Below, in pieces: positions 14,201 through 41,535 of a stretch of DNA of 41,535 nucleotides. The DNA comes from Candidatus Uhrbacteria bacterium RIFOXYB12_FULL_58_10 (GTDB lineage: Bacteria; Patescibacteriota; Patescibacteriia; UBA9934; GWF2-40-263): NCBI GenBank assembly GCA_001791645.1, contig MGFA01000015.1, positions 1 to 41,535 of the forward strand, written 5' to 3'. Numbering within the stretch: position 1 is the stretch's first letter; every line of letters starts with the position of its first letter. A model generated the notes under the pieces. That model was given only the letters and a program-made list of their open reading frames with translations, was not told the origin of the DNA and ran no database searches. The translations under genes were made by a program, and so were the position numbers.

Positions 14201-17200
14201 GGGAGTGCGCACGCGTTCGTCTGGAATTCGGCCGCGGACGTCCCGAATTCCGAGCACGCGGCGGTTCGAGTCAGACTCAAGCCGAATGATTCGTTGACTG
14301 ATGGCTCGGTCGCCACTTCGAGTCCGTTTGCAGTTGACCAAAAAGTCCCGATTGTTTCCAACGTGTCCGTCATGCAAAACGCTGGTGCCAGGACCGTGAC
14401 CATTGGATATGACCTGTCCGATGCGCACAATTCCACGGTTGAGATCGACATTTCCGAGGACGGGGGTTCCACCTGGAGCGTGGCGGACACCGCGGTAAGT
14501 GGCGACGTTGGTTCCGGGATTGCGTCTGGCGCGGGAAAGAGCATCACCTGGAACGCGGGCACGGACTTTGACGACCAATACCAGAGCGACATCCGCGTTC
14601 GCGTCCGTGCCAACGATACGTTCGGCAACCAGGGCGCCAATGCCGAATCGTCGAACTTCACGCTCGACACACACGACCCCTCCGTCACCAACGTGACCGC
14701 GGCCCAGGACGGCGGGGCAAAGACCTTCACGTTTCACTACGATGTCTCCGAGGACGCCGGGAATGTCACGGTCGCGCTCGCCATCTCGAGCAACGGGGGG
14801 TCCACATGGGTCGTTCCGACGACCTCAGCGTCTGGCGACCTTGGCGCGGGCATCGGGTCCGGGAGCGGAAAGACGATCGCCTGGGACGCCGGGACTGATT
14901 ATGACGGCTTTGAAAAGACGGCCATGCGCGTGAGGATTACGGCAACGGATTCATATTCGAACGCCGGCATTGGCTCCACCGGCGATTTCTCCTTGGATAC
15001 GCTGGCCCCGCGAGTGACGGGCGTGAGCGCCGCCCATGGCGCCGGATCCACGAACGTTGTCGTCACATATACGCTGGCGGATCAAAACGTCTCGCAGGTC
15101 GAGATTGATATCTCGGAGGACAGAGGCGGAAGTTGGACGGTTGCGGACACGGCCGTGTCAGGCGATGTGGGTTCGGGCGTTGCCAGCGGCGCGAAGACCA
15201 TTACGTGGGAGGCAGGAACCGATTTTGACGAGCAATCACAGGCGGACATGCGCGTTCGGGTCCGGGCGAAGGATCCGTTTGAGAATCAAAGCGCGAATAC
15301 TGAGTCTGGCGATTTCTCGATTGACACGGTCAATCCGACTGTCAACGTTATTGCCGATTTGCAGGCGCAGCCGAATGGCGGTGACACCACGGTACTCATT
15401 GGCGGCTCGTTCATGGAAACGAATCCGAACACGAACGGCTTTTATGTCGCGTTGAACGGAGGCGATTATGGTTCGGTTACCGACGGGCAGACGAACACGG
15501 CGACGCCCGCGGACAAGGCGACTGCCACCGGGGTGACGCTCGACGGCAACGACTATGTCTCTAAGGCGAAGATCGTGCACGCGGACGATTTCGGACAAAC
15601 GGTCGACAACGAAAACGTCTCGCCGTCCGCGGCGTACAAATATGTGAAACCGTACACGCCGCCGGCGCCGACCGTGGATAATCCGACGGTCGGCATGGTA
15701 GACGTGACCGTGAACAAGCACGCGTCGGAAACGGACGGGTTGGAATATGCCGTGTACGAGACCACGCAGGACGCGTACGTGCAATCGGACGGTACGCTCG
15801 GCGCCAGCGTGGCTTGGCAGGCGCTTGGAACGGGCGGCGGGGAGTGGGGAAACGGGACGGGTACGTCTGGCAAGGTGACGGCGAGCGGGCTTGCGAATCA
15901 CTCGTATACGTACGAGTTCAAGACCGTTTCGCGTAACGTGAGCGACGCGGCGCACGCGGCGTCGAGCGAAAGCGCGCTTTCCGGCGGGGCCTCTTCTGCC
16001 AATCAGTCGCCGGTGATCGTCCTTGATTCGGTCGCGCAGACCACGGACGGCTCAAAATATGTCACGATCAACTACACGGGATCGGATCTTGAGAGCGAGG
16101 ATTCCAATGTCATCACGGCGGAATATTCCCTCAATGGCACCACGTGGTATGACATGACCGAAAAGACGGGCGTGGGAAGCGACGGCACGACCGGGCTTTC
16201 CTTCGGCTATGCCGGTAGCGCGCATGATTTCATGTGGGATGTGGGCACGGATTTGGCAAACACGGAGGATTCCACGACCTATGTCCGATTGCAGGCGAAT
16301 GACGGCACGTCGAGCAGCGCCATCACCACGTCGAGTCCGTTCGCCGTTGATACGAAGGTACCGGCGATTTCCTCGGTGGTCGGCGAACAGACGCTCGGTT
16401 CTGGTATTGTTTCCTTCGCGTACACGCTAACGGACCTGTCGACCGGTACGGTCGAGCTTGATATTTCAGATGACGGCGGCTCCACCTGGAACGTGGCCGA
16501 CACGAGCGTGAGCGGCGACGTGGGCGGAGACGTTTCTTCGGGGACAGGGAAGACGATCTCGTGGAATGCGCTTTCGGACTTTGCAAATCAGGAACAGACC
16601 GACCTTCGCGTCCGCGTCCGCGCGACGGACGCGTTCGGAAACGCGGGAACGAACGCGTCGTCCACGAACTTCGCGCTTGACACGAAGGTTCCGGGCGTCA
16701 GCAACGTGACGGCATCGCAGGACGCGGGTCTGAACACGGTGACGATCGAGTACGACCTTTCCGACGCGAACGATTCCACGGTCGTCATTGAGATCTCCGA
16801 GGATTTTGGTTCGACCTGGGGAGTGGCGACGTCCACCCTTTCCGGCGACGTCGGCGCGGGCGTGGCATCGGGCGTTTCAAAGACCGTCGCGTGGGACGCG
16901 GCAACGGACTTTCCAAATCGTGAGCAGGCAGGCATGGTTGTCCGCGTTCGCGCGACGGACACGTACGCCAACGCGGGCCCGAACGTGTCCTCCGCGTCGT
17001 TTGTGGTGGATACAAAGGCGCCGGTCGTCTCGAACGTGAGTGCCGTCCAGACGCTCGGCACCGACTCCGTGGTCTTCACGTATGACCTTGCGGATAGCGG
17101 GGCGTCGACCGTTTTGCTCGACATCTCGGATGACGGCGGCTCCACCTGGACCGTGACGGACACGTCCGTGGCCGGAAGCGTCGGGGCCGGTATCACGGCC

Positions 17201-20200
17201 GGCAACGGGAAAGCGATCACATGGGACGCGGCCACGGACGCGCCGGGCACGGATCTCTCGACGATGCGCGTGCGCATTCGCGCGACGGATCCGTACGAGA
17301 ACGCGAGCGCGAACGTCGAATCATCGAATTTCGTCCTTGACACCGTTGCGCCGTCCTCGAACGTCTTGGCAGATGTGGCGTCACAGCCGCAAGCTGGCGA
17401 TTCGGTCGTTTCCGTCGAAGGGTCGTTTTCCGAGACAAATCCGGATACCAACGAGTTTTATGTGGCGATAAACGGCGGGGCGTATTTTGCCGGTACGTCG
17501 GGGATCGGAAATACGGCATCTCCGTCAAACCAGGACACGGCGGTCGGTGCCACGCTCGACGGGGACGATTACGTCTCAAGGGTGAAGATCGTGCACACCG
17601 ATGATTACGGGCATTCCGTCACGAACGAAAACGTGTCGGTCACGACCTCCGTAAAATACGTGAAGCCGTACGTACCGCAGGCGCCGACCGTAGGAAATCC
17701 GGAAAATACGTCCGTGGACGTTCTGGTTCTGCCGAACGTTTCCGAAACAGCCGGTCTGGAATACGCCATCCATGAAACGACGACGGATCGCTTTGTCCAG
17801 GCAGACGGGAGCCTCGACGTTGCCGAGGATTGGCAGACGACGGCCGCATGGGGAACGGTGACCGTCACCGGGTTGACGTCGCCGGTCGCGACCTATGCGT
17901 TTCAGGTAAAATCCCGAAACGTCAGCGACGCGGCGTACGCGGCGTCGAGCGAGAGCGCTTTGTCGGCCTCCGCGTCCATTGCCAACACGGCTCCGAGCGT
18001 TTCCATTACCGCGGCCGCGCAGGTCACGGGTGGCAACTATGCGCTCATCGAGTACATTGGGACGGACGCGCAAAACGACACCAACGACCTTTCCGTGTTC
18101 GAATATTCGACGGATAACGCGACATGGCATGTCATGACCGAGAAATCGGGCGTCGGTTCGGACGGGGTGAGTGACCTCGTATTCTCGTCCGTTGGATTAA
18201 GCTACGTTTTCGCCTGGGACATTGCATCGGATTTGACGAACACCGGGGATTCGACCGTGTACGCGCGTTTGCAATCGACCGACACGTTGGCTGATAGCAA
18301 CGTGGCGACATCATCGGCGTTCGCGGTCGACACGGTCGGACCGGTAATCTCAAACATCCGGACGAGCCAGGCGCCGGGCACCACGAACGTGACGATTTTT
18401 TATGACCTCGCCGAAGATACGCCGGGAAACAACGAGATGATGCTCGTCATTTCGGATGACGGCGGCGCGACATGGACGGCTCCCGTAACAACGCTTTCCG
18501 GCGATGTGGGCGCGGGCGTCTCTGCCGGGGATGACCGGACCGTGACCTGGGACGCGGGAGTTGATTTTGCGGGTCAGGAAAGCGACGCGCTGCGCGTCGA
18601 GATCCAAGGAACCGACGCCTACGACAACGTCGGAAGCGCGGTGCAATCGTCCGATTTTACCGCGGACGCGAAGTCGGCCGTGGTGAGCGGCGTGTCTGCC
18701 TCGCAAACGGTCGGAACTGGTCAGGTCGTCGTCAACTATGCACTCTCCGATTTGTCGCCCGGAGGGTCGTTCGTTGAGTTCGGTATTTCGTCGGATGGCG
18801 GCGCTACCTGGAGCGTGCTGGCAACCACTTACTTCGGCGACATTGGTTCCGGCCAGACCACAGGCTCAAAGTTATTCACCTGGGAGGCCGGAACGGATTT
18901 CAACGGTCAGGCCGGGGCTGACATGAGAGTTCGAGTTCGGGCAAAGGATTACTTCGCGAACCAGGGGTTCTATGTCGAGTCCTCATCATTCGTCGTTGAT
19001 ACGAGCGCCGCGGTGATCTCCGGTCTCTTGGCCGTTCAGGATGCGGGAGCGGATACGGTTACGCTAACCTATGACCTGGCAGATGACTCCGATGGCACGT
19101 TGAATGTGAACGTCGACGTTTCCGATGATGGAGGATTCACCTGGACGGTCGCGCGCACTTCCATGATTGGCGATGTTGGGTCGGGAATTACGACCGGAGC
19201 TGGAAAAACGATTGCCTGGTACGCAGGAACGGATTTCAACGGCCAGGATGTCGCCAACATGCGTGTTCGAATGACTGCAACGGACAGATTCGGCAACGTG
19301 AGTCCGAACTTTGAATCCGGTGATTTCGCGCTTGATACGGCCGATCCTGTCGGGCTGGCTGACCTGAGTACATTTTCAAGCGGTGCGACGTCTGTGACAT
19401 TGCACTGGACTGCGGCGACGGACGGGCACTTCGACCATTATGAGCTTTGGTATGGCGCGAACCGTGCGGATGTCCAGGATCGAACAGGATCTGCTTCCAG
19501 ATGGGGCGTGACCGACGACGCGAATTTGGCCGACGCGTTGACGGACGCGACCGTGATCACGGGTCTCTCGCTTGACGCGGATTTTTACGGAAAGATTTGG
19601 GCGGTTGACGCGTTCGGACATGAAACCACTACGAACGACATCAATGTATACACGCTGGTCGAGGCAACGGGCGGCGGCGGTGGAGGCGGTCTTGCCGGGC
19701 TTTCGGACGCGGTCGCTCCGGTCCAGCCGATATTATCATCGCTTTCGACTCCAACGAATCAAGCCATGGTCTTGGTTTCAGGGTTGGCCGAACCATTGTC
19801 GAACGTCGATCTCTACGATCACGACAATCTCGTCGCGCGTTTGGATCAGGTCACGGGATACACGGGGCGATTCTCGCAGGAGTTCTCGTTTGCCGAGGGC
19901 GAACATCGGCTGACCGTTCGGGCGATTGATTCGTCTCGCAACGAAAGCGAGCGTTCGATCGCAGTCAACCTTTCCGTTGATATGACTCTGCCGAGCCGAC
20001 CGATCATCACAAGCCAACGAATCGCTGAAACCATTGAAACGACTCCCGTGATCGTCGGAACGGCAGAAGCGCTTAGCGCCGTCGAGATTGTCGTCGATGG
20101 TCAATACGCATTCGTGACATCAGCGGACCAGTACGGTAACTGGAGATATCTGCTTCCGAATCAGTTCGCGCTTGACCTTGGGGCGCATACGTTCGTTGCG

Positions 20201-20824
20201 CGCGCGACGGACACGGCAGGAAATACGAGCAATCCGGCGACAGTCACGTTGAACGTGATTGAGCCTCCCGTATCAGTCATGCCGAAACCAGGCGTCGGCG
20301 AAGGAACGGTCCTTGGATTGCTGCTGCCATCCGTTCCGGTTCTTACGCCCACAACGCCTCCGGTGTCCGTCGCAGAAATTATTCGTGAGGAGACAGAGGC
20401 TGTCGTTCTCCCGGGACTTTTGGCTCCAGAAGTTGTTCTGAGCGCGGCCTCGCTCGATGGAAATAGGTTCATTTTCAGCGGCACGGCCGTTCCGAATAGT
20501 CATGTGGTCGTTTACATCCATAGCGCCCAAGCGCTCATTTACCAGACAATAGCAGATAACAATGGCGTGTGGAGCATCTCCCATTCGCAGGATACGGCCG
20601 AATTGACCCCGGGCGAGCATACGATCTATTCCGTTTCAGTTGATCCGGAAGCCAAAGTAAAGAGCATACCAGGAGAGGTGAAATCCTTCTTCGTCACACG
20701 AAGCGCCTGGGCAGCGTTCTATCAGATGCTCAACTTACAAACAACGCTTGTGACTATTCTTGCCCTGCTTGCCTGCGTTTGGTGGCTTTTCATCCTGAGA
20801 AAGCGTACCATCGCTCAGGTATGA
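11288..20824 (+). CDS. Giant (3178 aa) surface repeat protein with N-terminal TM module, Ig/FN3-like repeat stalk and C-terminal TM
   Basis: Single uninterrupted ORF; about 110-aa repeats with DISxDGGSTW...GKTIxWxAxTDF...MRVRVRAxD...NFxLDT; C-terminal hydrophobic segment TTLVTILALLACVWWLFIL. Confidence 0.95.
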   Translation: MEKRFLNVFLMFSGYVFALKERLVQAKDWYRVLAIATALILAELVFALVSLPLYFVVSPKKVQESGMVFPERKGAGKYRDYVVRRKITMASALGATAVFALKIFFVGVVSFYMLGAQELLADTQDWTFDTPGNYTYDSAKIEVTGGVARLKNLGSASSGSTSNSSFDASAAGWTGVPGWIDAPSKTNSTNWQSAGGNPTGHVDINLPGKKKNSSAGYWYQAFTTTASTPDTATLNLDWRSVSVTDLPTSYQLYAFIDTGSGNPVLGTQVWSSGNLTSATSWASIPTVDIRSKVPTAGTYYLKIAAYHTCQTGTDCDTVSGFDNVAVNWSKTVVSYDTSKPTIYPNASLNPSKVITWDSFAETATKNGGQIYYQLSDDDGSTWNYWSGSTWAAAGAGNYNAASEIHANIATFPTTSNKIKFKAFLEGDGSQQVMLDNVAIGYTQNALPVVTSVTPAQDTGAGYVYVNYSLQDNNSDPLSLTTYEYSLTGAFAGEQATMTPVPVDPNHNGVTGLSSSPGGTAHTFVWDAKSQVGAIYDSTVYVRLRANDGVGNSEYAISSASPVDYVIPVVSNVTAVQTPESTNVAFTYDLTDDTPDNLLVEVDVSEDAGSTWTVTDTSVGGAVGSGMSTGTGKTITWAAKTDFPNQVQHDIRVRVRAKDKWMNQGTDAASADFAIDTLSPATAIVANLQAQPNAGDTTVLIGGSFTETNPDTNDFYVAINGGAYSAGTAGTTNTATPADQATAVGATLDGNDGVSGVKIIHTDDFGQATDNENPSPATAYTYVRPYTPQAPTLSLPATTNLNLTIVPHASEASDLPYAIQETTTGLYAQGNGTLGASPVWQIMGTGSGQWGNNTGVSGRVNVSGLSSPLSMYVFRVKSRNQNDGAHAASSESAYSATAQITNTAPSISYSSVSQTTDGTQYVTVSYTGTDGQGDICSLPTYEYSTDNVNWYAMTEKTGVGSEGVSNLVFLSGGSAHAFVWNSAADVPNSEHAAVRVRLKPNDSLTDGSVATSSPFAVDQKVPIVSNVSVMQNAGARTVTIGYDLSDAHNSTVEIDISEDGGSTWSVADTAVSGDVGSGIASGAGKSITWNAGTDFDDQYQSDIRVRVRANDTFGNQGANAESSNFTLDTHDPSVTNVTAAQDGGAKTFTFHYDVSEDAGNVTVALAISSNGGSTWVVPTTSASGDLGAGIGSGSGKTIAWDAGTDYDGFEKTAMRVRITATDSYSNAGIGSTGDFSLDTLAPRVTGVSAAHGAGSTNVVVTYTLADQNVSQVEIDISEDRGGSWTVADTAVSGDVGSGVASGAKTITWEAGTDFDEQSQADMRVRVRAKDPFENQSANTESGDFSIDTVNPTVNVIADLQAQPNGGDTTVLIGGSFMETNPNTNGFYVALNGGDYGSVTDGQTNTATPADKATATGVTLDGNDYVSKAKIVHADDFGQTVDNENVSPSAAYKYVKPYTPPAPTVDNPTVGMVDVTVNKHASETDGLEYAVYETTQDAYVQSDGTLGASVAWQALGTGGGEWGNGTGTSGKVTASGLANHSYTYEFKTVSRNVSDAAHAASSESALSGGASSANQSPVIVLDSVAQTTDGSKYVTINYTGSDLESEDSNVITAEYSLNGTTWYDMTEKTGVGSDGTTGLSFGYAGSAHDFMWDVGTDLANTEDSTTYVRLQANDGTSSSAITTSSPFAVDTKVPAISSVVGEQTLGSGIVSFAYTLTDLSTGTVELDISDDGGSTWNVADTSVSGDVGGDVSSGTGKTISWNALSDFANQEQTDLRVRVRATDAFGNAGTNASSTNFALDTKVPGVSNVTASQDAGLNTVTIEYDLSDANDSTVVIEISEDFGSTWGVATSTLSGDVGAGVASGVSKTVAWDAATDFPNREQAGMVVRVRATDTYANAGPNVSSASFVVDTKAPVVSNVSAVQTLGTDSVVFTYDLADSGASTVLLDISDDGGSTWTVTDTSVAGSVGAGITAGNGKAITWDAATDAPGTDLSTMRVRIRATDPYENASANVESSNFVLDTVAPSSNVLADVASQPQAGDSVVSVEGSFSETNPDTNEFYVAINGGAYFAGTSGIGNTASPSNQDTAVGATLDGDDYVSRVKIVHTDDYGHSVTNENVSVTTSVKYVKPYVPQAPTVGNPENTSVDVLVLPNVSETAGLEYAIHETTTDRFVQADGSLDVAEDWQTTAAWGTVTVTGLTSPVATYAFQVKSRNVSDAAYAASSESALSASASIANTAPSVSITAAAQVTGGNYALIEYIGTDAQNDTNDLSVFEYSTDNATWHVMTEKSGVGSDGVSDLVFSSVGLSYVFAWDIASDLTNTGDSTVYARLQSTDTLADSNVATSSAFAVDTVGPVISNIRTSQAPGTTNVTIFYDLAEDTPGNNEMMLVISDDGGATWTAPVTTLSGDVGAGVSAGDDRTVTWDAGVDFAGQESDALRVEIQGTDAYDNVGSAVQSSDFTADAKSAVVSGVSASQTVGTGQVVVNYALSDLSPGGSFVEFGISSDGGATWSVLATTYFGDIGSGQTTGSKLFTWEAGTDFNGQAGADMRVRVRAKDYFANQGFYVESSSFVVDTSAAVISGLLAVQDAGADTVTLTYDLADDSDGTLNVNVDVSDDGGFTWTVARTSMIGDVGSGITTGAGKTIAWYAGTDFNGQDVANMRVRMTATDRFGNVSPNFESGDFALDTADPVGLADLSTFSSGATSVTLHWTAATDGHFDHYELWYGANRADVQDRTGSASRWGVTDDANLADALTDATVITGLSLDADFYGKIWAVDAFGHETTTNDINVYTLVEATGGGGGGGLAGLSDAVAPVQPILSSLSTPTNQAMVLVSGLAEPLSNVDLYDHDNLVARLDQVTGYTGRFSQEFSFAEGEHRLTVRAIDSSRNESERSIAVNLSVDMTLPSRPIITSQRIAETIETTPVIVGTAEALSAVEIVVDGQYAFVTSADQYGNWRYLLPNQFALDLGAHTFVARATDTAGNTSNPATVTLNVIEPPVSVMPKPGVGEGTVLGLLLPSVPVLTPTTPPVSVAEIIREETEAVVLPGLLAPEVVLSAASLDGNRFIFSGTAVPNSHVVVYIHSAQALIYQTIADNNGVWSISHSQDTAELTPGEHTIYSVSVDPEAKVKSIPGEVKSFFVTRSAWAAFYQMLNLQTTLVTILALLACVWWLFILRKRTIAQV
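12623..13987 (+). repeat. Superunit 1 of giant protein: A + 1xD (12980-13315) + BC
   Basis: Alignment by eye of A (VTPAQDTG...VRLRANDG), D and BC units. Confidence 0.75.
13988..16000 (+). repeat. Superunit 2: A + 3xD (about 14342, 14672, 15002) + BC (about 15329)
   Basis: Begins NTAPSISYSSVSQTTDG; contains three about 330-nt D units, then LQAQPNGGDTTVLIGGSF. Confidence 0.8.
16001..17983 (+). repeat. Superunit 3: A + 3xD (about 16355, 16685, 17015) + BC (about 17345)
   Basis: Begins NQSPVIVLDSVAQTTDG; period about 2.0 kb. Confidence 0.8.
17984..19339 (+). repeat. Superunit 4: A + 3xD (about 18335, 18671, 19004), no BC; followed by FN3-like and Ig-like modules
   Basis: Begins NTAPSVSITAAAQVTGG; D units followed by the TSVTLHWTAATDGHFDHYELWYG FN3-like segment. 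Confidence 0.78.
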
Positions 20825-30751: not shown

Positions 30752-30779
30752 GAAAAAGCCCGCCTCGGGGGGAGGCGGG
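30752..30779 (-). terminator. Intrinsic terminator at the end of the NAD island
   Basis: - strand CCCGCCTCCCCCCGAGGCGGG-CTTTTTC. Confidence 0.88.
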
Positions 30780-30786
30780 AGGGGTC

Positions 30787-32715
30787 TCAGATGGTCTCGG
30801 CCCAGGTGCGGTCCTGGACCACGGGAAGCTGAAGCGCGCGTTCGCGCTCCAAGTCGAGCGTGCCGAGGTGCAGCGAGAGCGGGCACTGGACCCACTTGAA
30901 GATGGAGCCGAAGAACAGTCGGACGAACAGCGCCGTCCATTCCGCGACCCGCTCTTCCTTGGGCCACATCTGCGTGACGATCGCCTGCACCTCGCAGACG
31001 GACATCTTCTCACCCACGAACAGGGCGAACATCGCGTCCAGCACCGGGAACGGCATCAGGTCGCGCTCGTCCTCCTGTCCCTCTTCCAGCTCGGCCGATG
31101 CCTTGCTGTCGAGAAGGCTGTGGATCACATCAAGTCCGGTCTGCTCGAAATACCAGCGAATGAACTCGATGACCACCGTCTTCGGCAGGTTTGCGATGAG
31201 CGCGAGCGCGCCCATCATGTCGCCGCCGACCGTGGTGTAGCCCACGGCCTTCTCGGTCATGTTGGATGTCTGCAGCCACAGGCCGCCCGTCTCGTTGGCG
31301 ATGTTCTGCATGCGCTCGCCGCGCACGCGAGCCTGGATATTCTGCTCGGTATTGCGCTTGAGACTCGAGACGCCGAGCAAGGCCATGAGCGCCCGGCGCT
31401 CCTTTTCCACCGCCTCCTGGATGGGCGAGACCTTGAGCGTGACGCCGAGGTCATCGCAGATCCGCTTCGTGATCCCGCGCGTCTCCGTGCTGTTGTGGTC
31501 GCTCGGCATGTCGACGCACCAGACCATGTCCCTGATGAACGCCGCGCGTTCGTCGTCCGCGAGCTTGCGCCGGTCGGCCTCCTTGCATACCGCCTTGTGG
31601 GCGAGCATGAGCGTCAGGCACGAGTCCTTCCCGCCGGAGAGTGCGATGAGGATCCGCTTGAACGCGCCGGTCTTGCGGAAGTATCCCATCATGCCGATGC
31701 CGATGACCATCTCCAGGTCCTGGAAGTACTCGTATCGCGCGCTGGCGCGGGGCGAGTCCGCCTCGGGAAGGAAGAAGCTCCGGTTCTTCGGGAACGGGTA
31801 TGGCAGCGCGCCGTTCGGCGGAGCGACCTTCCTCAGGATGTCGTCGGTTACCACGGGGACCGGCTTGTGGGCGCCGAGGTACTGGTCGCGCGCGTGGCGC
31901 CAGGTGGTGTTTTCCATTCGCATGCGGCGCACGCGGTCGAGGTCGACCACCTGTGTCTGGTATCCCTCGCGGCCGCGTTCGGAATCGAGCATCATTCGCC
32001 CGCACTGGTTGACGTATCCGCCCCCTTCGAATACCAGGCTGTCCTGGGCGCCGACGAGGTTGACGTACGCCACCGTGGTCAGGTTGTCCGCGGCCCGCGT
32101 GGAGATCATCTCGTGGCGCGTCTGGCGGGCGCCGAGTCGGAACGGCGAGGCATTGATGCTCACGTCGAGCTCGGCGCCGCTGAAGTTGCGCCGAACCATG
32201 GGGCCGTCGGGGCGCCAGATGTCCTCGCAGACCTGCGTTGCCATCCTTCCGAAGCCGAACTCGAAGATCATGTCGCCGATCGGAATGTTCCGGATCTTTG
32301 CGCTCATGCCGATCGAGCCAGGGGTGATGGTCCGGCCCTCGTAGAACACGTTGTAGTCCGGGAGGTTCTCTTTTGGAACCATTCCGACGATTCGACCACC
32401 CGCGATAATGGCCGCGACGTTGTACAGGCTGCCGTCTAGGTGGACCGTGAGGCCGACCACGAGCACCGTGTTTCGGAACGTGTCGTCGAGGCTCGCGACC
32501 AGGTTGTCGAGCGCCTTGCCCTGCTGGTCGACGAAGGCCGCCCATTGAACCAGGTCCTCGCACGGGTAGCCAGATACGGACAGCTCACCGAAGGCAGCCA
32601 CATGACAGCCCTCGGCTGCCATCGCACGCGCCTGGACGAGAATCCGATTGACGTTGTCCTCGAAGGCACCGACCGTGGGGTCGACGTTTCCGAGACCGAT
32701 TTTTACGAGTCGCAT
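30787..32715 (-). CDS. nadE: Glutamine-dependent NAD+ synthetase (nitrilase-like glutaminase + synthetase domains)
   Basis: GELSVSGYPCEDL, CEDIWRPDGP, LSGGKDSCLTLMLA, QTSNMTEKAVGYTTVGGDMMGAL; ATG at 32715 with GGAGA RBS. Confidence 0.95.
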   Translation of the reverse strand: MRLVKIGLGNVDPTVGAFEDNVNRILVQARAMAAEGCHVAAFGELSVSGYPCEDLVQWAAFVDQQGKALDNLVASLDDTFRNTVLVVGLTVHLDGSLYNVAAIIAGGRIVGMVPKENLPDYNVFYEGRTITPGSIGMSAKIRNIPIGDMIFEFGFGRMATQVCEDIWRPDGPMVRRNFSGAELDVSINASPFRLGARQTRHEMISTRAADNLTTVAYVNLVGAQDSLVFEGGGYVNQCGRMMLDSERGREGYQTQVVDLDRVRRMRMENTTWRHARDQYLGAHKPVPVVTDDILRKVAPPNGALPYPFPKNRSFFLPEADSPRASARYEYFQDLEMVIGIGMMGYFRKTGAFKRILIALSGGKDSCLTLMLAHKAVCKEADRRKLADDERAAFIRDMVWCVDMPSDHNSTETRGITKRICDDLGVTLKVSPIQEAVEKERRALMALLGVSSLKRNTEQNIQARVRGERMQNIANETGGLWLQTSNMTEKAVGYTTVGGDMMGALALIANLPKTVVIEFIRWYFEQTGLDVIHSLLDSKASAELEEGQEDERDLMPFPVLDAMFALFVGEKMSVCEVQAIVTQMWPKEERVAEWTALFVRLFFGSIFKWVQCPLSLHLGTLDLERERALQLPVVQDRTWAETI

Positions 32716-32790
32716 GTTGTCTCCGATGAATGAGCATTTCTTTGTCTTGAGGCCTCGAACACGGGATGTGCTCAAGGACTCGAGGAAAGA

Positions 32791-32812
32791 TCCGTATGCC
32801 TTGGCATACGGA
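32791..32812 (-). terminator. Hairpin A of the intergenic module (radical SAM to nadE)
   Basis: Perfect TCCGTATGCC-TT-GGCATACGGA followed on the - strand by TCTTTCC. Confidence 0.7.
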
Positions 32813-32833
32813 GAGGGGCGGGTTGTATCTCCC

Positions 32834-33796
32834 CTAGTAGAGGCTCTCGCCGTTGTGGTCCCAGTTGCGATACCCGTGGCCGTCTGGCTTGTGCACGATG
32901 GACTTCAGGACGCTGCCGCTCGTTCCTTCCTCAGTGCATGAGAAGGTCAGGTTCACGCCGTGGGCTGGGTCCTTGAAGTTCCCGCCGACCACGAACACCG
33001 GGGTTCCCCACGGGAGTGGGTCGCGCTGCTGGAGGCCGTACTGGTTCTCGAGTTCGGAGGCCATGCGGATGAACTCGTCCTGGATCGGCGCGACTTCGAC
33101 CGCGTGGGCGTGGCTCCATTCGTACACGCCCGCGTTCCACGCGCCGTATACCTTCGGTCGCCACACTTCGCGGACGACCACCTGGTGCGCGCCGAGGTTG
33201 CCGGCCCGCTGAACGTAGTCGAGCACGCCTGCCGCGTCCTTCACGCCGAGATCGCTCATCACGAGCGAGCAGCGCACGAGCAGGCCAAGGTCGCGCGCGA
33301 TCGGAATGAGCTCGGCCGCGCTCTTGCGAATGCCCATGAGCTCGCGGTTCTGCGCCTCGTCGAACGACGCGAGCGAGAAGCTCACCATGGTGAGCCCGGC
33401 GTCGACAAGCTGTTCGAGCAGTTGCTCGCGCAGTTTGCCTGTGTGCAGGAGCCAGCCGTTCGTGTGCATGTCCACGAGAGGGAGGTATTCCTGCGCGGTA
33501 CTGACCAGCCAGGTCAGGTACTCCGGCGTCTCCTGGGTCGGATCGGCCTTGCCGGTGAGAATCGCGTGCGTGGCGCCGAGCCGTTCGGCATATCGGAGGC
33601 CGACGCGAAGCCGGCGCTCGTTGCAGAAGGCGATGTCGCCCGCGTTGCACGGCGTGACTTCTGCCTCGGGGGTGGTCCGCGAGATGCAGAAGCGGCATCC
33701 GGCGTTACACCGGGTCCGCGAGCTGCACATGAGGCTGATCGACTGGGCGCGCATCTGGCCATTGCCATGCGCGATCTGGGGCTTTTGGGTGTCCAT
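32834..33796 (-). CDS. Radical SAM protein
   Basis: SSRTRCNAGCRFCISRTTPE (CxxxCxxC); LVDMHTNGWLL; MVSFSLASFDEAQN. Confidence 0.85.
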   Translation of the reverse strand: MDTQKPQIAHGNGQMRAQSISLMCSSRTRCNAGCRFCISRTTPEAEVTPCNAGDIAFCNERRLRVGLRYAERLGATHAILTGKADPTQETPEYLTWLVSTAQEYLPLVDMHTNGWLLHTGKLREQLLEQLVDAGLTMVSFSLASFDEAQNRELMGIRKSAAELIPIARDLGLLVRCSLVMSDLGVKDAAGVLDYVQRAGNLGAHQVVVREVWRPKVYGAWNAGVYEWSHAHAVEVAPIQDEFIRMASELENQYGLQQRDPLPWGTPVFVVGGNFKDPAHGVNLTFSCTEEGTSGSVLKSIVHKPDGHGYRNWDHNGESLY

Positions 33797-33853
33797 GCGA
33801 TCCTCATTCGAAGCGTCGACGGGGTGTCGGCGGCTCGAGGAAAGAGGCCTCCG

Positions 33854-34636
33854 CTACGAGATGGAGGCGAGCAGGTCTGCGTTGGAGAAGGTGCGACGGA
33901 CGATGGGCCGCCAGACGTTCGATGACCTCCCGAGGTCGCTCGGGCAGGTCGAATGGCGCCACATGGGAGCGTTGCGGACATCGTTCGGATTTTCTGGGTG
34001 CACCCGCGAGTATTCGACCACCTGGCCGTTGTAGATGTGGTCGCATGGATTCTCGGACGCGTCGAGCGCGTTCCAATCCTCGATGGTCAGTCGTTCCAGA
34101 CGCATGCGGAACGCCCACATGACCTCGCCGTGGCACACGATGATGGCGCGGCCGTCCGTGCACTCCCGGTGCAGGGTGTCGAGCATCCGATCCACGCGGC
34201 CGCACACTTCCACCATGGTTTCGCCGTTCGGCGGACACCACAGGAATCCGTTGATGGCTCGCCGTTCTATGTTTTCGGCGAAGCGTGCCAAGCGGTCGCG
34301 ATGGCACATCACGTCGAGGTCGCCCCAGTCACGCTCGCGCAGGTAGAAATCCACGCGCCACTGGGCGTTCTCGAGGCCGAGCAGGGCGGCGGTTTCTCGC
34401 GCGCGGAAGTAGTCCGACGTGAAATAGTGCGAATAGGGTGGGTTGTTGGAACGGATCCATTCGCCCGTGGCGCGCGCCTGTTCGCGCCCGCGTTCCGTGA
34501 GCCGCCAGGTACGGCTGTGGCGCTCGAGGAACTCGGCCGTGAAGCACGAGTCGTCGCCGCGCAGCGAAGCATGGTGCGCGACGTTGCCCTCGCTCTCGCC
34601 ATGGCGGACAAGAGTGAGACGCAGGGGCATGGTCAT
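33854..34636 (-). CDS. Histidine phosphatase (phosphoglycerate mutase-like) family protein
   Basis: LTLVRHGESEGN; SDYFRARETAALLG; RAIIVCHGEVMWAF. Confidence 0.9.
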   Translation of the reverse strand: MTMPLRLTLVRHGESEGNVAHHASLRGDDSCFTAEFLERHSRTWRLTERGREQARATGEWIRSNNPPYSHYFTSDYFRARETAALLGLENAQWRVDFYLRERDWGDLDVMCHRDRLARFAENIERRAINGFLWCPPNGETMVEVCGRVDRMLDTLHRECTDGRAIIVCHGEVMWAFRMRLERLTIEDWNALDASENPCDHIYNGQVVEYSRVHPENPNDVRNAPMWRHSTCPSDLGRSSNVWRPIVRRTFSNADLLASIS

Positions 34637-34696
34637 GGCTGTCTCCTTGGTCCGAGCGGTCCAGTTGCCTGGACGGCTCGGGAAAAGAGAGGACGC

Positions 34697-35269
34697 TTAG
34701 CGTCCCAGGTGTTGCGGCCTTCGAAGAAGTCGGCACTCGAGCTCGCGTGCAAGCGCGTACACGCGCAGGTCGTCGTGCGGGCCGATCAGAAATTCCTGAG
34801 TGGACATCCAGACGCGGTGCGTGCGTTCGTTCTCGGCCGCGACCCCGAACGTTTCACCCGGATCGAGTTGGTCCTCCCGAATCTCCGCGAACGCAAGGAT
34901 GCAGCGCTCCGTGAGCACACCCGGCGAAGGAGCCAGGGGACGGCCTTCATTGAGCAGGGTCACGTCGGCTTCCATGATGTTCGCACCGGCCTCTTCCTTG
35001 GCCTCTGCGACGAACAACGCCTTGGCGCCGACCACGCGGTCGAACCGTCCTGCGATGAGCTCGACGATCAGTCCCTCCGTGTTGTCGTCGCGCACCATGG
35101 GTGCGCGGTTCTGTCGAACCAGGCACACGCGATCATTGGCAGGGTCGTACAGCAGGCCCGAGACCGAGTCCGTGGTACGCACCACGAGCATCGTGTGTTT
35201 GGAACCGGGCTTCTGCCAGCGTTCGAGCCGAAGAAAGCCGGAAAAGTCGGTGTCAATCAGATTGAACAT
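34697..35269 (-). CDS. Nudix hydrolase (ADP-ribose pyrophosphatase-like)
   Basis: IVELIAGRFDRVVGAKALFVAEAKEEAGANI, a slightly degenerate Nudix box; ATG at 35269 overlaps the upstream gene. Confidence 0.8.
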   Translation of the reverse strand: MFNLIDTDFSGFLRLERWQKPGSKHTMLVVRTTDSVSGLLYDPANDRVCLVRQNRAPMVRDDNTEGLIVELIAGRFDRVVGAKALFVAEAKEEAGANIMEADVTLLNEGRPLAPSPGVLTERCILAFAEIREDQLDPGETFGVAAENERTHRVWMSTQEFLIGPHDDLRVYALARELECRLLRRPQHLGR

Positions 35270-36291
35270 TCCAGTGCCTCCCTGATGTAGTGCGCGAGCG
35301 CACCGCGCAGGTCGTTTGGGTCGTGGACGCAGTGGTTGCCACGGACGCGCCCGATGACGCGGTGCGTGACTCCGTTGATTTCGAATCGTTCTGGGTCGTA
35401 GAAGCGTCTCGCAAGCTCGGGCACGGCCGCGAGGACGTTCATCGGGTCGTAGAGCCGGAACGTCTGCACGAACGGCCATGCCGGCTGGTCGCCCGGAATC
35501 CCGGGGTCCTGTTCCCACATGGACGTGCGAACATACCAGTCGCGCGTGCGGGAGACCGGAAGCCTTCCGCGAACTGTCGATCCGGGCTCGGCGTGAACCG
35601 CCTGCCACAGTTCGTCCATGGCCAGAGGAAGCCTTCGCGCCAGCGCGAGGCCGACCGGATGGCCGAGCTCCGCGAGCATCACCGGCATCCACGCCACCAT
35701 TTGGCAGACGTAGGCTGCCTCACGCATGAGCACCGTGGTCGGCACGCGGTTGTCCCGCAGCCAGCGGTAGATAAACTCCGCGGCCGGCAGATCGAACTCG
35801 TTGTTCGCCGCGTCGTCCGGGATCAGGTGCCCGTCATCGGTCACGCGCACGCCGCCCATGATGGCGACGTGCCCGACCCGTCTCAGGAACAGGTCAGCAT
35901 CCGTCTTGATGAAGGCGACCACGTCCGTGAGCGCGCTGTTGAGCACGAGCGTGACGGGTTCCGCGGAATCCGTGAGAACCCGGCGCAACAGTTCCTGTCC
36001 GTCGCCGAACAGTCGGCTGGCATCGGCCAGATAGGAAACGTCGGTCTCGTGGCTCGGCGTCCGGCCGTCCATGGTGACGGACATCCCGACGGACACGGGG
36101 ACGTGTCCGAAGCCAACCGCCTCGAGCGTTCCCTTGGCAAGGCGCGCGCGTTCGAGCGCTGGATTCAGGTTCGCGATCACGCCGAGCAGGCGGACGTATC
36201 CGCGCCTGGCGAGCGCAACGGCAAGGAGCATGGCGAACTCGTCGTCCAGGTCCTTGCCGAAGTCGCCGACCATCAGCATGGGAATGGGCAT
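35257..36291 (-). CDS. Nucleoside hydrolase-like (IU-NH fold) protein
   Basis: MVGDFGKDLDDEFAMLLA (DxxxDxDD-like Ca-binding motif), VTLVLNSALTDV, VGHVAIMGG, NEFDLPAAEFIY. Confidence 0.82.
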   Translation of the reverse strand: MPIPMLMVGDFGKDLDDEFAMLLAVALARRGYVRLLGVIANLNPALERARLAKGTLEAVGFGHVPVSVGMSVTMDGRTPSHETDVSYLADASRLFGDGQELLRRVLTDSAEPVTLVLNSALTDVVAFIKTDADLFLRRVGHVAIMGGVRVTDDGHLIPDDAANNEFDLPAAEFIYRWLRDNRVPTTVLMREAAYVCQMVAWMPVMLAELGHPVGLALARRLPLAMDELWQAVHAEPGSTVRGRLPVSRTRDWYVRTSMWEQDPGIPGDQPAWPFVQTFRLYDPMNVLAAVPELARRFYDPERFEINGVTHRVIGRVRGNHCVHDPNDLRGALAHYIREALECSI

Positions 36292-36344
36292 ATCTTCACC
36301 TCGAGGCGTTGAGCACGCAATGTGTTCAACGCCTGGAGAAAAGA

Positions 36345-36362
36345 GACGAGACGTGTCTCGTC
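36345..36362 (-). terminator. Hairpin A of the intergenic module (pncB to nucleoside hydrolase)
   Basis: GACGAGAC-GT-GTCTCGTC, followed on the - strand by TCTTTTCTCC. Confidence 0.6.
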
Positions 36363-37623
36363 AGACGCGGCATTCCTCGGAGAAATGCCCATGGTAATCG
36401 GCGAGCCCTACCAGGCGCGTGACAACGGCTTCTCCGCCGATGGCCTTCTGGATGTTGTCGGTGAGCTTGCCGAGGTCGTGCCCGGCGCACCACATCAGCT
36501 TGACCACGATCGAAATTGGATCGATCCCCATGTCGAACATGAGGTCCGTGCCCCAGCCGAACTGGAACGTCATCCAGCCGACGAAGCGCTCGGCGAGCGC
36601 GATCATCTTGCGGACGTCGAGGCCGTCGGAGAACACGCCGACCTTGGCGATCGGGTCGATCCCGAGCTCGCGATAGTACGCGATAAAGCGCTCGCCCCAG
36701 TCGAACGGGTCGCCGGAGTCCTGGCGTTGGCCCTTCCAGGCGCGCGCGCGGGCCTCGCCGAACGTGCGCAGGAAGTACTCGCTCCCGTAGGTGTCGGAGA
36801 GCGCAATCGACAGCATGTCGCCATAGAGCGCGAACCAGTCGTCGAGCATACGCTCGTGCGACACGAGTCGGCCTGCCGCGTTGTCCTCGGCGTGATAGAT
36901 GCCCTGGTAGGCCATGTCGCACTCGTGCGCCATGGTGCCGACCACGTTGAGGCCGGTGCGCATGGCGAGCAGGACGTTGGAGGTTCCCATCAGCAGCCCG
37001 GGCCGCAGCTCGGCCATCAGGCGGCGGAGCACGTGCTCCTGCCATGCGAGCGACCGGCGCCGGCGCGTGCCGAAGTCGATGAACGGCACGGGCAGGCCGC
37101 GGTCGTGCGCCTCGTTGAGCGCGACGATCTTGGCGGTGAGCCTGCGGTCGCCCTCGGCCCAGAGGTCATCATCCGTGAGTCCTAGCTCGTGCTTCTCGCC
37201 CTCGATGTACAGCTCGTTCACGATGTTCATGACGAGCGTTTCCCAGAGCATTGAGTCGACGAGCCGTGCTTCTTCCGGGGTCTCGATGATCAGCTGTGTG
37301 CCGTCCTCCGAGAGGGAGACGTGGATCGGTGAGAGCTGGAGCCCGCGGAGGAACTCCAGGAACTCTGGTTCGAACAGACCTCCGCGTTTCTCGCTCACCT
37401 CGGCGAGGTAGGCGATCTCCTCGTCCGTGAAGCGCAGGGTGCGCCCGTGCCTGAACTGGCGTCGCAGCTCTTTCACGCCGATCTTGCGCGCAAGCTGCAC
37501 GCGCACGGTACGATTCTTGAATCCGTATCGGCCGGTCACCGCGAGGTGGAACTTCCAGTACAGCTGAAGCATCGTCAGCTTGTAAAAGTCTACGTCCGCG
37601 AGCGACGTGAGAATCCAACGCAT
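36361..37623 (-). CDS. pncB: Nicotinate phosphoribosyltransferase
   Basis: LADVDFYKLTMLQ, FIDFGTRRRRS, MGTSNVLLAM, GTMAHE, QRQDSGDPFDWGERF, VGVFSDGLD; ATG at 37623 with GGAGG RBS. Confidence 0.95.
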   Translation of the reverse strand: MRWILTSLADVDFYKLTMLQLYWKFHLAVTGRYGFKNRTVRVQLARKIGVKELRRQFRHGRTLRFTDEEIAYLAEVSEKRGGLFEPEFLEFLRGLQLSPIHVSLSEDGTQLIIETPEEARLVDSMLWETLVMNIVNELYIEGEKHELGLTDDDLWAEGDRRLTAKIVALNEAHDRGLPVPFIDFGTRRRRSLAWQEHVLRRLMAELRPGLLMGTSNVLLAMRTGLNVVGTMAHECDMAYQGIYHAEDNAAGRLVSHERMLDDWFALYGDMLSIALSDTYGSEYFLRTFGEARARAWKGQRQDSGDPFDWGERFIAYYRELGIDPIAKVGVFSDGLDVRKMIALAERFVGWMTFQFGWGTDLMFDMGIDPISIVVKLMWCAGHDLGKLTDNIQKAIGGEAVVTRLVGLADYHGHFSEECRV

Positions 37624-37718
37624 TATTATGCCTCCATGAAAAGGGCGTTTCTTTTTTCGGCGCTCCCACGCGGGTCGTGAGGGGGCCGAGTAAAGAGGGA
37701 AGCGGGGCTTCCCGATGT

Positions 37719-39134
37719 TCAGGATGGGAACTGCAGCGCGGCGATCTTGGCGCCGAGCGAACGGCCGGGGAGGAAGGCTAGTTCCACGCTTTCCACGCGA
37801 CTTCGGCGGACGCGCATCTCGATGCACGGGCCGTAGGGGATGCCGTCGATCACCGCTCGCACGGGGCGCTTTGCGGGATCGAGTACCCTGAAGGTGACCG
37901 TCGAATCGTCCGGTACCATGGCGTGGTGCCAGCCGACGGGATCGGCTACGGCTGACGCGGCGATGAGCAGCACAGGCGTGTCGATGAGTTGCGGCGGAGC
38001 GCCCATGGCACGGGCATAGGCCGTGGAGCCCGCCGGCGTGGACACGAGCACGGTATCGCACGCGAGGCACGGGATTTCGTGTCGGTTCTGTCCCTCGGCG
38101 ACGACGCGGATCCAGGCGGTCTGCGTGCTGTCGCGTTCGAGCCACGCGTCGTTGAACGCATATCGTTTCTTTGGATCCCACGTTCCGTCGGGAAGTCGGA
38201 ACTCCACCTCGACCTTGGAGAGCAGGTGCGTATCGAACGGCTGGCCACTTGCGACGTGGGCGTTGAATTCCTCACCGGTGAGCTCGTTGAGCAGAAATCC
38301 GCGGTGACCCGCGTTGATCCCGATGATCGGAATGCCGGGTTGCACGGAACCGATGACGTCGAGCATGTGCCCGTCGCCGCCGATCGCCACGACGGCGTCA
38401 GGGTCATTCGCGCCGTGAGGGTTCACTTCGTCCATGATCGCCCTCGCCCGTTCATTTTCCCCAGCCGGGATGACGAAGAGGTTCGGGTTTCTTGGCAACG
38501 TCAGGCGACCGAAGCGCTTTGCGCCGGGTGCGGCGCTGTAGAGGCCGAACCGCACGACATACGCGGCTACGCGCGGCGGTACGCCCGGGGGCGCGGTATC
38601 GCCACGCGCGAATGCCAGACGCGCGTCGCTGCTCGCGTCCGAACGGCCCGTGCCGTCGATGACTTCACGATGCGGCGGGAGATCGGCTTCGGTGAACGGA
38701 TATCCCTCGCGCGGAACGATCACGAAGTTCAGTTCGTTCCACACGCGGGCTCCGTCTTTCCAGGACATTTGGATCTCGGACCTGCCGGACGCGCCGCCGA
38801 CGATCAGGTCGCTCCCGATCATGTGCCACACTTCCCATCCGCCACCGAGCCGTTTCTTCCAGAGCCGATCGAGATCGGTCGTCCGGAGGAACTCGTCTCG
38901 TTCGAGGTCGTCCAGGTCGAGTTCGACCCCTGGAATGTCGTCGAACGCGATTCGTGCCATGTTCGCGCGGTGCGCGGGGTCCACGGCGTTGTTCGATCCC
39001 TTGGTCGGCCGAATGCCGCAGATGACGACGCGCGTTCGGTCGAAGCGACGCGCTGCTCGTGTTGCCGCCTCGACGTGCGTTTCGTGCGGGGGATTGAGGG
39101 ATCCGCCGAAAACGCAAAGCCTGTTTATTGCCAT
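37719..39134 (-). CDS. Fused nicotinate-mononucleotide adenylyltransferase (NadD-like) and NAD kinase (NadK-like)
   Basis: N-terminal CVFGGSLNPPHETHVEAA and HMIGSDLI; C-terminal VVAIGGDGHMLDVI, GINAGHRGFLLNEL, VLVSTPAGSTAYARAMGAP; one continuous ORF. Confidence 0.9.
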   Translation of the reverse strand: MAINRLCVFGGSLNPPHETHVEAATRAARRFDRTRVVICGIRPTKGSNNAVDPAHRANMARIAFDDIPGVELDLDDLERDEFLRTTDLDRLWKKRLGGGWEVWHMIGSDLIVGGASGRSEIQMSWKDGARVWNELNFVIVPREGYPFTEADLPPHREVIDGTGRSDASSDARLAFARGDTAPPGVPPRVAAYVVRFGLYSAAPGAKRFGRLTLPRNPNLFVIPAGENERARAIMDEVNPHGANDPDAVVAIGGDGHMLDVIGSVQPGIPIIGINAGHRGFLLNELTGEEFNAHVASGQPFDTHLLSKVEVEFRLPDGTWDPKKRYAFNDAWLERDSTQTAWIRVVAEGQNRHEIPCLACDTVLVSTPAGSTAYARAMGAPPQLIDTPVLLIAASAVADPVGWHHAMVPDDSTVTFRVLDPAKRPVRAVIDGIPYGPCIEMRVRRSRVESVELAFLPGRSLGAKIAALQFPS

Positions 39135-39196
39135 GGAATGAGTTCCTCTGTTCTTCCGTTCGGATTCCCACCGCGTGTGAGCATCCGGAGAAAAGA

Positions 39197-39214
39197 CCCG
39201 AGAACGTTCTCGGG
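39197..39214 (-). terminator. Hairpin A of the intergenic module (pncA to nadD-nadK)
   Basis: Perfect palindrome CCCGAGAACGTTCTCGGG followed on the - strand by TCTTTTCTCC. Confidence 0.6.
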
Positions 39215-39222
39215 AAGGCCGA

Positions 39223-39978
39223 TCAGGCCGCGGCGCGGATCTGGTCGGAGGTGATGAGGTGGCCGCCGGCGGCCTTGATCTTGTCGGCCATCTCGTCCGC
39301 GCCCTCCTGCGTAATCGCCGGAGACAGGTCGGTAACCATGTAGGTCTCGAACCCGTACTCGAGGCTGTGGAGCCCACTTAGTCCATCGCAGACGTCGAAG
39401 ACGAATCCGGTCACCACGTTCGTGGTGATCCCGCGGCAGCGCTCATACTCGTCGAGGCGCGTGGAGTCACCGCCATTGTCGCGAAATGCCGAGTACGAGT
39501 CCCGGTGCGGACGGTTGCCCTTGTTCCAGGTGATCGTGGACTCGCGCTCGATGTCCGCGTAGATGCGCGCGTCGTCCTCGCCCTCGATGGCATGATCGGG
39601 CCAGAGGGTCTGGAAACCGACGATCGTCAGGTACTCGATCAGCTCCGCGAGCGTGAACAGCGCGTGCGCAGCGATGCGGTTTTCCGTCCAGGCGAGTACC
39701 TCCGAGAGCGTTAGGTCGTGGAACTTCGCGTACCCGATGAATGAGCTCGCGAGCGAGACGTGACCCCACGGATGGATGTCCCGCGTGACGATGCGGCGGT
39801 TCACGGGGAACTTGCGCATCAGACGGAGGATGTGCCCGAACTGCTCGTTGCAGCCGTCGACCCCGAGCGGGTACGGCTTGCAGAACGTCGACTGAAGGTC
39901 GATGCCGAGAAAGGCCCACGTTCCGATCCTCGGGACGATCAGGCCTTCTAAAGTACGACGAGTGCAGAACACTGCCAT
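39223..39978 (-). CDS. pncA: Nicotinamidase (isochorismatase fold)
   Basis: FLGIDLQSTF, TRDIHPWGHVSLAS, LWPDHAIEG, NKGNRPHRDSYSAFRDN, VTGFVFDVCDGLSGLHSLEYGFETYMVTDLS (catalytic Cys kept). Confidence 0.9.
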   Translation of the reverse strand: MAVFCTRRTLEGLIVPRIGTWAFLGIDLQSTFCKPYPLGVDGCNEQFGHILRLMRKFPVNRRIVTRDIHPWGHVSLASSFIGYAKFHDLTLSEVLAWTENRIAAHALFTLAELIEYLTIVGFQTLWPDHAIEGEDDARIYADIERESTITWNKGNRPHRDSYSAFRDNGGDSTRLDEYERCRGITTNVVTGFVFDVCDGLSGLHSLEYGFETYMVTDLSPAITQEGADEMADKIKAAGGHLITSDQIRAAA

Positions 39979-40087
39979 TAGACACCTCGCTGACGTTTAT
40001 TCTTCTTCCGAGCCGTCCATGACCTCATGGGCGGCTTGGATAAAGACCCCACTTCGCACTGTGCAGGGCTACGTTGGGGGTGGGCAG

Positions 40088-41446
40088 TCAAAGCCCGAAG
40101 TGCGCGGTGAGGCGCTTGTCGTTGGCGGTCGGGCCGTGGGAGGTGATCCACACGTGGAGGCCGAGCTCGCGCTCGATGGCGGCCACGTGCTCGGCGACGC
40201 GTTCCTCCTGCGTCGACGCGCGGGTCGAGACCCCGTACCTGGGCACGGCCTCGAACAGTCGGCGGGTGAGTGCCTCCTGGTATTCGAGGTCCTTGAACGG
40301 CCCGAGCTGGATGTCGCGGCCCGTGTCGTAGGCCGTGCAGATCTTCCACTCGGCCTCGTCTTTCAGGCGGTCGAGGCAGGTGACGATCAGACCGTCGAGC
40401 TTGCCGATACACGCGATGGCGTATCGCACGGCCACGGCGTCGAACCAGCCGACGCGGAACACGCCCTGCCAGCCGTCCTGGCCGTTGTGCGCGTCGGGCA
40501 CGCGTACGGAGAGGCCCGCATCCTCGGTGACGAATGGGCCGGCGCCGTGCCGGGTGCCGTACGCGCGGACGATGCCGAGCCGATGCACTTCGCCGGCGTA
40601 CCCGTGCTCCTCGAGCAGCGCGTCGGCGTTGTCGAGGGTGCAGGTGGACCAGGTGGTGTACGGGTGGAATCCGCGCCACTCGTCGATGAGCACGCCTTGC
40701 GCGGGCTCGAAGATGACCGTGCCAGGGCGGGCGAGGATCTCGCCGAGGTACGCGTCCGGAACGATCCGGGCGCGTTCGAGGAACGGTGCGAGCAGGCACA
40801 GGTACTCGTCGACCACGCTCGGGTAGAACAGGTCGTCGATGTCGTGGACCGCGTCGCGCAGATGCGTGCACTTGGCGAGCACGCCTTCCGCGCGCAGCTG
40901 CTCGAGCTTGTACGCCTGGACCCGCAGGAACTTCTCTCGCAGCGCGATCGCATCCCCGACGAGGTCGCGGACGCGCACGATGAGCGACGGGTCGAGCTCG
41001 AGCGAGTCCTTCACGGTCTCGCCGACCCCGGCGCCGCAGCTCCCGTGCCGTCCCACGCCCCGCGCGCGCTCGCGCATGCGGTTCGCGATCTCGTGCCACG
41101 GGGTGATGACGAGCGCGTTCTCGCTGATCGTGGTGCGCTTGAACGCGTCCGTGACGCCGAGTCGCGCAAGGCGCTCCTCTTCCTCGAGCATGTTCCACGG
41201 GGACAGGACCATGAAGCGCGTGAGGTGCGTCGCGACGCCCGGGACCAGCGTGGCCGATCCGAACTGCTGGAAGCGGTGCAGCTGGCCGTCCTGCCCGACC
41301 ACGTGGTGCGCGGCCTGCGCGCCGCCGTTGAAGCGGACCACCGTGTGCGCGCCTCGCAGGCGTGCCAGGTAGTCCACCGTCGTCCCTTTGCCCTGGTCGC
41401 CCATGAACAGGTCGGCCAGGAGCCAGGCTTCTCTTGGGTGTGTCAA
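40088..41446 (-). CDS. Adenylosuccinate synthetase-fold protein (divergent PurA-like); likely TTG start at 41446
   Basis: LFMGDQGKGTTVDYLA, VRFNGGAQAAHHVV, EPAQGVLIDEWRGFHPYTTWST, YGTRHGAGPFVTE, RVGWFDAVAVRYA, SHGPTANDKR; GAGGAGG about 9 nt upstream of TTG. Confidence 0.85.
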   Translation of the reverse strand: MTHPREAWLLADLFMGDQGKGTTVDYLARLRGAHTVVRFNGGAQAAHHVVGQDGQLHRFQQFGSATLVPGVATHLTRFMVLSPWNMLEEEERLARLGVTDAFKRTTISENALVITPWHEIANRMRERARGVGRHGSCGAGVGETVKDSLELDPSLIVRVRDLVGDAIALREKFLRVQAYKLEQLRAEGVLAKCTHLRDAVHDIDDLFYPSVVDEYLCLLAPFLERARIVPDAYLGEILARPGTVIFEPAQGVLIDEWRGFHPYTTWSTCTLDNADALLEEHGYAGEVHRLGIVRAYGTRHGAGPFVTEDAGLSVRVPDAHNGQDGWQGVFRVGWFDAVAVRYAIACIGKLDGLIVTCLDRLKDEAEWKICTAYDTGRDIQLGPFKDLEYQEALTRRLFEAVPRYGVSTRASTQEERVAEHVAAIERELGLHVWITSHGPTANDKRLTAHFGL

Positions 41447-41535
41447 AGGATCTTTCCTCCTCGTGTCACTGGTCGACCGCGGGTCAACCGTTGGCATCAG
41501 GATGAAAAAACGGGGCCTGGCACCTGCGCTCAGGC

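Follow-up and report, generated by a model that had tools for sequence, protein, structure and literature searches.

The window, the whole stretch of DNA analysed here, is 41,535 bp long and represents one entire contig of a 1.12-Mb genome with a completeness rating of 100%. Judged by its size, the genome may belong to a Patescibacteria-like lineage with reduced genomes. A minus-strand run of nine genes at 30.8–41.4 kb, hereafter the NAD island, encodes in order a PurA-like protein, an isochorismatase, a NadD-NAD kinase (NADK) fusion, an NAPRTase, a nucleoside hydrolase, a Nudix-like protein, a His-phosphatase, a radical SAM protein, and NadE. The Nudix-like gene (34697–35269) has no Pfam match. 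A simple scan found no sigma-70-like promoter in the island, which is closed by an ordinary terminator-like hairpin with five consecutive U at 30759–30779 on the minus strand, 3′ of NadE. Along the window (1–41535), the GC content is ~0.45 at the left contig end and climbs to ~0.64 in the island, and hence the island may have a history unlike that of the rest of the contig. A contig search with the NAPRTase returned only distant homologues, for the most part beta- and gammaproteobacterial, and a virus-borne origin was rejected since the NadD-NADK fusion has no relative in IMG/VR. The genes outside the island are simple calls made in this analysis. At 11288–20824 on the plus strand, a single ORF of 3178 aa probably encodes a giant surface protein.

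Architecture of the intergenic element

Seven junctions of the island, namely those upstream of the isochorismatase, NadD-NADK, NAPRTase, nucleoside hydrolase, His-phosphatase, radical SAM, and NadE genes, are predicted to fold in the same manner: a hairpin A is followed by a hairpin B, and then by the Shine-Dalgarno (SD) sequence and the start codon. The initial annotation had assigned a layout of hairpin A, free UCUUU spacer, and hairpin B to eight junctions. Folds and shuffled controls place seven of them essentially where it had put them. The eighth, before the PurA-like gene at the contig end, was dropped because it gives no match to the covariance model described below and because the U6 tract of its upstream hairpin is unbroken. 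The overlapping nucleoside hydrolase/Nudix pair is indeed devoid of the element.

The spacer, in contrast to its first description, is predicted to be paired. In every fold the U-rich tract UCUUU (or UCUCUUU, UUUUCU) is paired with a purine run 3′ of B (AAAGA, GGAAGA, AAGGAGA, or GGUGAAGA), and the compensatory pair changes reported below likewise contradict a free spacer. As this pairing extends beyond B, B is the top of a longer irregular hairpin, which is referred to as B* and measures 45–52 nt in the window. UCUUU forms the 5′ foot of B*, and the opposite foot is AAAGA, GGAAGA, or the SD itself. B* begins 0–1 nt past hairpin A. In the window its mismatches are mostly 1×1 and 2×2, and its loop is 4–5 nt.

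All copies in the island lie on the minus strand; the E-values given here are those of the covariance model R1, which was made from 27 B* hairpins. Hairpin A is present at each junction, as first annotated, but the one 3′ of the PurA-like gene and before the isochorismatase (40047–40079) is weak and imperfect, the weakest of the seven in the folds. The adjoining B* of the isochorismatase gene (39223–39978) spans 40001–40046 (E = 5e-8), with the SD beyond it. Hairpin A after the isochorismatase (39197–39214; 7 bp, loop 4) is followed by the folded B* of the NadD-NADK fusion gene (37719–39134) at 39152–39196 (E = 2.7e-9), and hairpin A after NadD-NADK (37697–37713; 7 bp, loop 3) by that of the NAPRTase gene (36361–37623) at 37650–37696 (E = 2.9e-8; fold z −5.4 together with A). 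Next, hairpin A after the NAPRTase (36345–36362; 7 bp, loop 4) precedes the B* of the nucleoside hydrolase gene (35257–36291) at 36293–36344 (E = 3.3e-8), which contains the SD. The fold after the Nudix-like gene has hairpin A at 34690–34706 and the B* of the His-phosphatase gene (33854–34636) at 34643–34689 (E = 2.6e-7; fold z −5.9 with A); here the SD, AAGGAGA, pairs perfectly with UCUCUUU of B*. Another hairpin A (33847–33868; 6 bp, loop 10) overlaps the His-phosphatase stop codon and is followed by the B* of the radical SAM gene (32834–33796) at 33801–33845 (E = 8.1e-7), again with the SD inside. Finally, hairpin A after the radical SAM gene (32791–32812; 9 bp, loop 4) adjoins the B* of the NadE gene (30787–32715) at 32739–32790 (E = 3.5e-7; fold z −7.7 with A).

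A catalogue of 54 copies was built from model and fold matches, and its length and pairing statistics hence describe copies that pass those filters: B* is 47.0 ± 3.5 nt long. The folds of B* from the window and relatives have 14–21 pairs interrupted by mismatches; an RNase III processing site would call for a double-stranded intercistronic stem of about two helical turns. The SD starts inside B* in 25 of these copies and beyond it in 27, so masking of the ribosome site is common but not constant, and SD pairing does not define B*. What stays constant is instead the foot, YCUUU/AAAGR, where A and B* meet. Four U in a row are present in 41 of the 54 copies. Most copies of hairpin A carry 3–4 U, a tract that in the folds pairs within B* after B* is transcribed. 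The loops and upper stems of B* vary freely and the YCUUUUCUCC strand is conserved.

Evidence for selection on the structure, and its distribution

The junctions were scored in a motif-blind way for a hairpin A adjoining a 41–56-nt hairpin, with 150 dinucleotide shuffles of each junction as controls. This score replaced an earlier whole-junction MFE test for tandem hairpins, which caught three of the seven. The A+B score was beaten by none of the 150 shuffles at six junctions, the radical SAM one included, and by two at the NadD-NADK junction; taken alone, the radical SAM and NadD-NADK junctions have modest whole-region z-scores. The score was also applied to 182 further same-strand junctions of the sampled genome, and several of the highest-scoring ones turned out to be new copies with CUUUUCY (one in L011, two in L135, and one in L150).

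Covariation points in the same direction. The rows of the first alignment were selected because they fold, and its strong covariation is thus partly circular. An R1-fitted alignment of 30 rows leans the same way, with 83.7% of its cells in pairs versus 65.7% after shuffling and 102 double-sided changes versus 36. As a less circular test, the leaders of orthologous genes in the window and in the related genome G002 were set side by side in ungapped comparison. In the nucleoside hydrolase leader, three compensatory changes keep the stem and two pairs are lost; in the NadE leader, there is one compensatory change, and two further pairs are gained and two lost. R1 also recovers junctions outside its training set, for example L113:18982, L116:7823, L115:12379, and L192:157. 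The proposal that a constant layout with different stems reflects selected RNA structure is therefore supported by covariation and by orthologous copies in relatives.

Islands that contain the NadD-NADK fusion, or the parts of that fusion, are present in other members of the family, where gene order is reshuffled, and their junctions keep the same design, often as CCUUUUCUCC...GAAGG. R1 matches with E ≤ 1e-4 were found in 14 of 43 genomes of the family and in none of 30 genomes of three sister families of the same order; within the family, some operons and some genomes miss the element. A search of 750 kb of the own genome recovered the seven island copies with E below 1e-6. Outside the island, this genome has one copy in L150, three within the VWA/SBP-OmpA/permease/ABC/AAA operon that lies at one end of contig C16, and two near-identical ones in L014, where an unknown operon precedes a large ORF taken for rpoB. 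Some of these outside copies are weak by R1 (E 1.5e-4 to 0.12, the E-values being rough), and each has a hairpin A, the foot, and an in-register start codon. The prefilter of the whole-genome search drops weak matches, and the L014 copies that it missed were found by direct scan. In relatives, the non-NAD genes downstream of the element include those for a PurA-like protein, a member of the nucleoside-phosphorylase family, GHKL-type ATPases, AAA ATPases, and a protein without a Pfam match that was judged from sequence to be VWA-like. The view of the element as a feature of the NAD island was hence too narrow, and regulation specific to that island was rejected given the copies at VWA/SBP/ABC/AAA, PurA-like, nucleoside-phosphorylase-like, and unknown operons. 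Rfam gave no gathering-level match in the window (best E = 1.5, inside a gene), so an NAD riboswitch or other Rfam leader was set aside. No prior description of the element was found in the open-licence literature, which is weak evidence of novelty.

Several loci deserve separate mention. At L014:12768–13254 on contig C12, A and B* occur twice in nearly identical form ~390 nt apart, each before an unrelated small gene, which looks like a recent cassette duplication. The operon with junction elements at L135:9246–18567 on C16 encodes VWA, SBP-OmpA, permease-like, ABC ATPase, and AAA ATPase proteins, and its ABC-AAA pair recurs with the element in G008 (L188:8139–11533). PurA-like proteins stand in element-bearing operons of two genomes of the genus (window 40088–41446; L185:8312–9643 in G001), one of them next to kinase-like and VWA-like proteins, and may be specialised relatives of adenylosuccinate synthetase. 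In G031 and G019 (L118/L119), the NadD-NADK and NAPRTase leaders carry a differently worded repeat, CCUGAGCUCGAG..CUCGAGACCAGAUUU or CCUGCGCUCGA..UCGAGUCCAGAUUU, perhaps another version of the junction element.

Assignment of A and B* to genes

We then inspected which gene each hairpin belongs to. Within the genus, B* similarity is 0.54 between copies with the same downstream gene versus 0.25 between copies with different genes; across genera the values are 0.19 and 0.12 (permutation p = 0.0006, with pairs that are not independent). B* covaries, and it resembles those B* copies of relatives that precede the same gene; its behaviour is thus that of a 5′ leader linked to a gene. In G002, the isochorismatase gene heads the island. 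The sole promoter-like site in those 9 kb has its end at 10295, and B* follows from about 10308, without a clear hairpin A; the window counterpart, which follows the PurA-like gene, has a weak A. This first-gene leader of one operon is suggestive of B* travelling with its gene and A with the preceding cistron. We read B* as a 5′ leader probably carried by its own gene, and A as a likely 3′ element of the preceding cistron.

Candidate functions of the element

Genes for RNase Y were found in 11 of 12 genomes, for RNase J in 12 of 12, and for RNase III in 12 of 13, while none of 12 genomes has an RNase E/G gene. RNases Y, J, and III without RNase E/G correspond to RNA decay as in Gram-positive bacteria, where RNase J is stopped by structure at the 5′ end and exonucleases by structure at the 3′ end. 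A free spacer of RNase E type was rejected, the spacer being paired and RNase E/G not being found. The absence of RNase III from G025 was discarded as a natural test because it is an assembly hole that also removes the neighbouring prolyl-tRNA-synthetase-like gene. In G007, the genes for gyrase A and RNase III flank an ORF with a reverse-transcriptase domain (RVT_1; L200:6526–7533).

The leading readings take hairpin A as a putative 3′-end stabiliser or weak terminator and B as a putative 5′ stabiliser or processing stem. We favour a composite intercistronic element at each junction, in which A would close the upstream cistron and the gene-linked B* would open the next for selective processing and stabilisation; this model may well hold and may equally well fail. 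An RNase Y-type ribonuclease, or RNase III acting in B*, would cut the operon transcript at or in the foot. Hairpin A would then shield the upstream mRNA from 3′ exonucleases and B* the downstream mRNA from 5′-to-3′ RNase J, such that mRNA half-life and dose might be set for each gene separately. In copies with the SD within the foot, opening or cutting of the foot would also free the ribosome site. That the island has no internal promoter-like site counts in favour of processing.

Bacteriophage T7 has RNase III sites between the early genes of a long transcript. As there, an irregular hairpin precedes gene after gene; unlike the sites of that virus, B* is shorter, abuts a hairpin A, and is a putative cleavage site. 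In Ruminiclostridium cellulolyticum, the IR4 region of the cip-cel operon has a small stem-loop that acts together with the A-U bottom of the next, large stem-loop to place a cut upstream of the large one, and the sequence of the small loop and the upper part of the large one are unimportant for the cut (PMC10311766). The folds of the seven window junctions and of relatives likewise place a small intercistronic stem-loop before a larger one whose bottom is A-U, at several junctions of one operon and with decay of the RNase Y/J type, RNase E/G not being found here. The sequences of A and upper B* drift while the layout and foot persist, as in IR4, and this favours processing and stabilisation. 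In contrast to IR4, where cleavage was shown (PMC10311766), the present hairpins abut, the 5′ foot strand shows sequence conservation, B* varies little in length and contains mismatches, and copies of the element are found in different operons and throughout a family. An intergenic RNase Y cut that leaves the new 5′ end protected by a stabilising hairpin, as proposed here, is known from cggR-gapA and glnRA of Bacillus subtilis, which are single junctions with no repeated two-hairpin cassette (PMC11780869). Several points count against the processing model. Since A and B* leave 0–1 unpaired nt, an enzyme specific for single strands would have to act while the foot breathes. Sequence conservation of the CUUUUCUCC side goes beyond the demands of pairing, which IR4 does not explain. 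An SD inside B* in half of the copies fits translational control equally well, and the first-gene leader comes from a single operon.

Termination offers another, unlikely account, in which A and a YCUUUUCU tract form a deliberately inefficient internal terminator, some of the polymerases stop at each junction, gene dose falls along the operon, and B* merely re-pairs the tract on read-through RNA. Five of the seven A hairpins of the window score as terminator-like, and the frequent run of four U (41/54) fits. Clostridial ABC importer operons contain internal terminators of partial efficiency (PMC9045158). Like the present stem-loops, these lie inside operons, have low-U tracts that are paired, and leave parts of the stem unpaired, ABC/SBP operons being involved in both cases. 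There, however, one stem-loop pairs the tract with its own 5′ side, whereas the present tract finds its partner downstream, within another hairpin that is tied to the following gene. Termination needs neither that tie nor a B* conserved as much as A. Moreover, the tract has just 3–4 U with a C interruption, compared with five consecutive U after NadE, and seven terminators in series would starve NadE unless each were very weak. A comparison with the U-tracts of convergent-gap hairpins was uninformative, as the best hairpins there are often not terminators.

It is rather unlikely that B* is in essence a translational control hairpin whose foot masks the SD until ribosomes, temperature, a protein, or a metabolite open it. 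GGAG is the complement of the conserved CUUUUCUCC, the SD is perfectly paired in the His-phosphatase leader, and it starts inside B* in 25 of 54 copies; yet in the 27 copies with an outside SD the foot pairs with another purine run, and hairpin A is left unexplained. The narrow length range of B*, its repeated mismatches, the conserved YCUUUUCUCC strand, and its presence in several unrelated operons would suit a binding site for a dedicated RNA-binding protein of the family that co-regulates NAD and other operons. We consider this very unlikely, as there is no candidate protein and the loops and upper stems are free to vary. Chance structure of GC-rich intergenic DNA is hardly credible: at a GC content of ~0.64 single hairpins are common, and two junctions have modest z-scores, but shuffles, covariation, and the family-limited distribution refute it. 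Processing, partial termination, and translational masking could all act together. A bolder and distinctly unlikely extension would make A/B* an undescribed class of cis-acting RNA of one family, all copies of which would be cut or read by one dedicated factor, uniting NAD synthesis and the unrelated VWA/ABC/AAA operons in one post-transcriptional regulon.

The outcome is a searchable RNA model with clear predictions for RNA-end mapping, and the cassette could be tried as an operon-balancing part. The element suggests that some small-genome bacteria with long operons tune each gene post-transcriptionally by a portable two-hairpin cassette. The hairpin pair looks like punctuation, by which one long message would be handled gene by gene.
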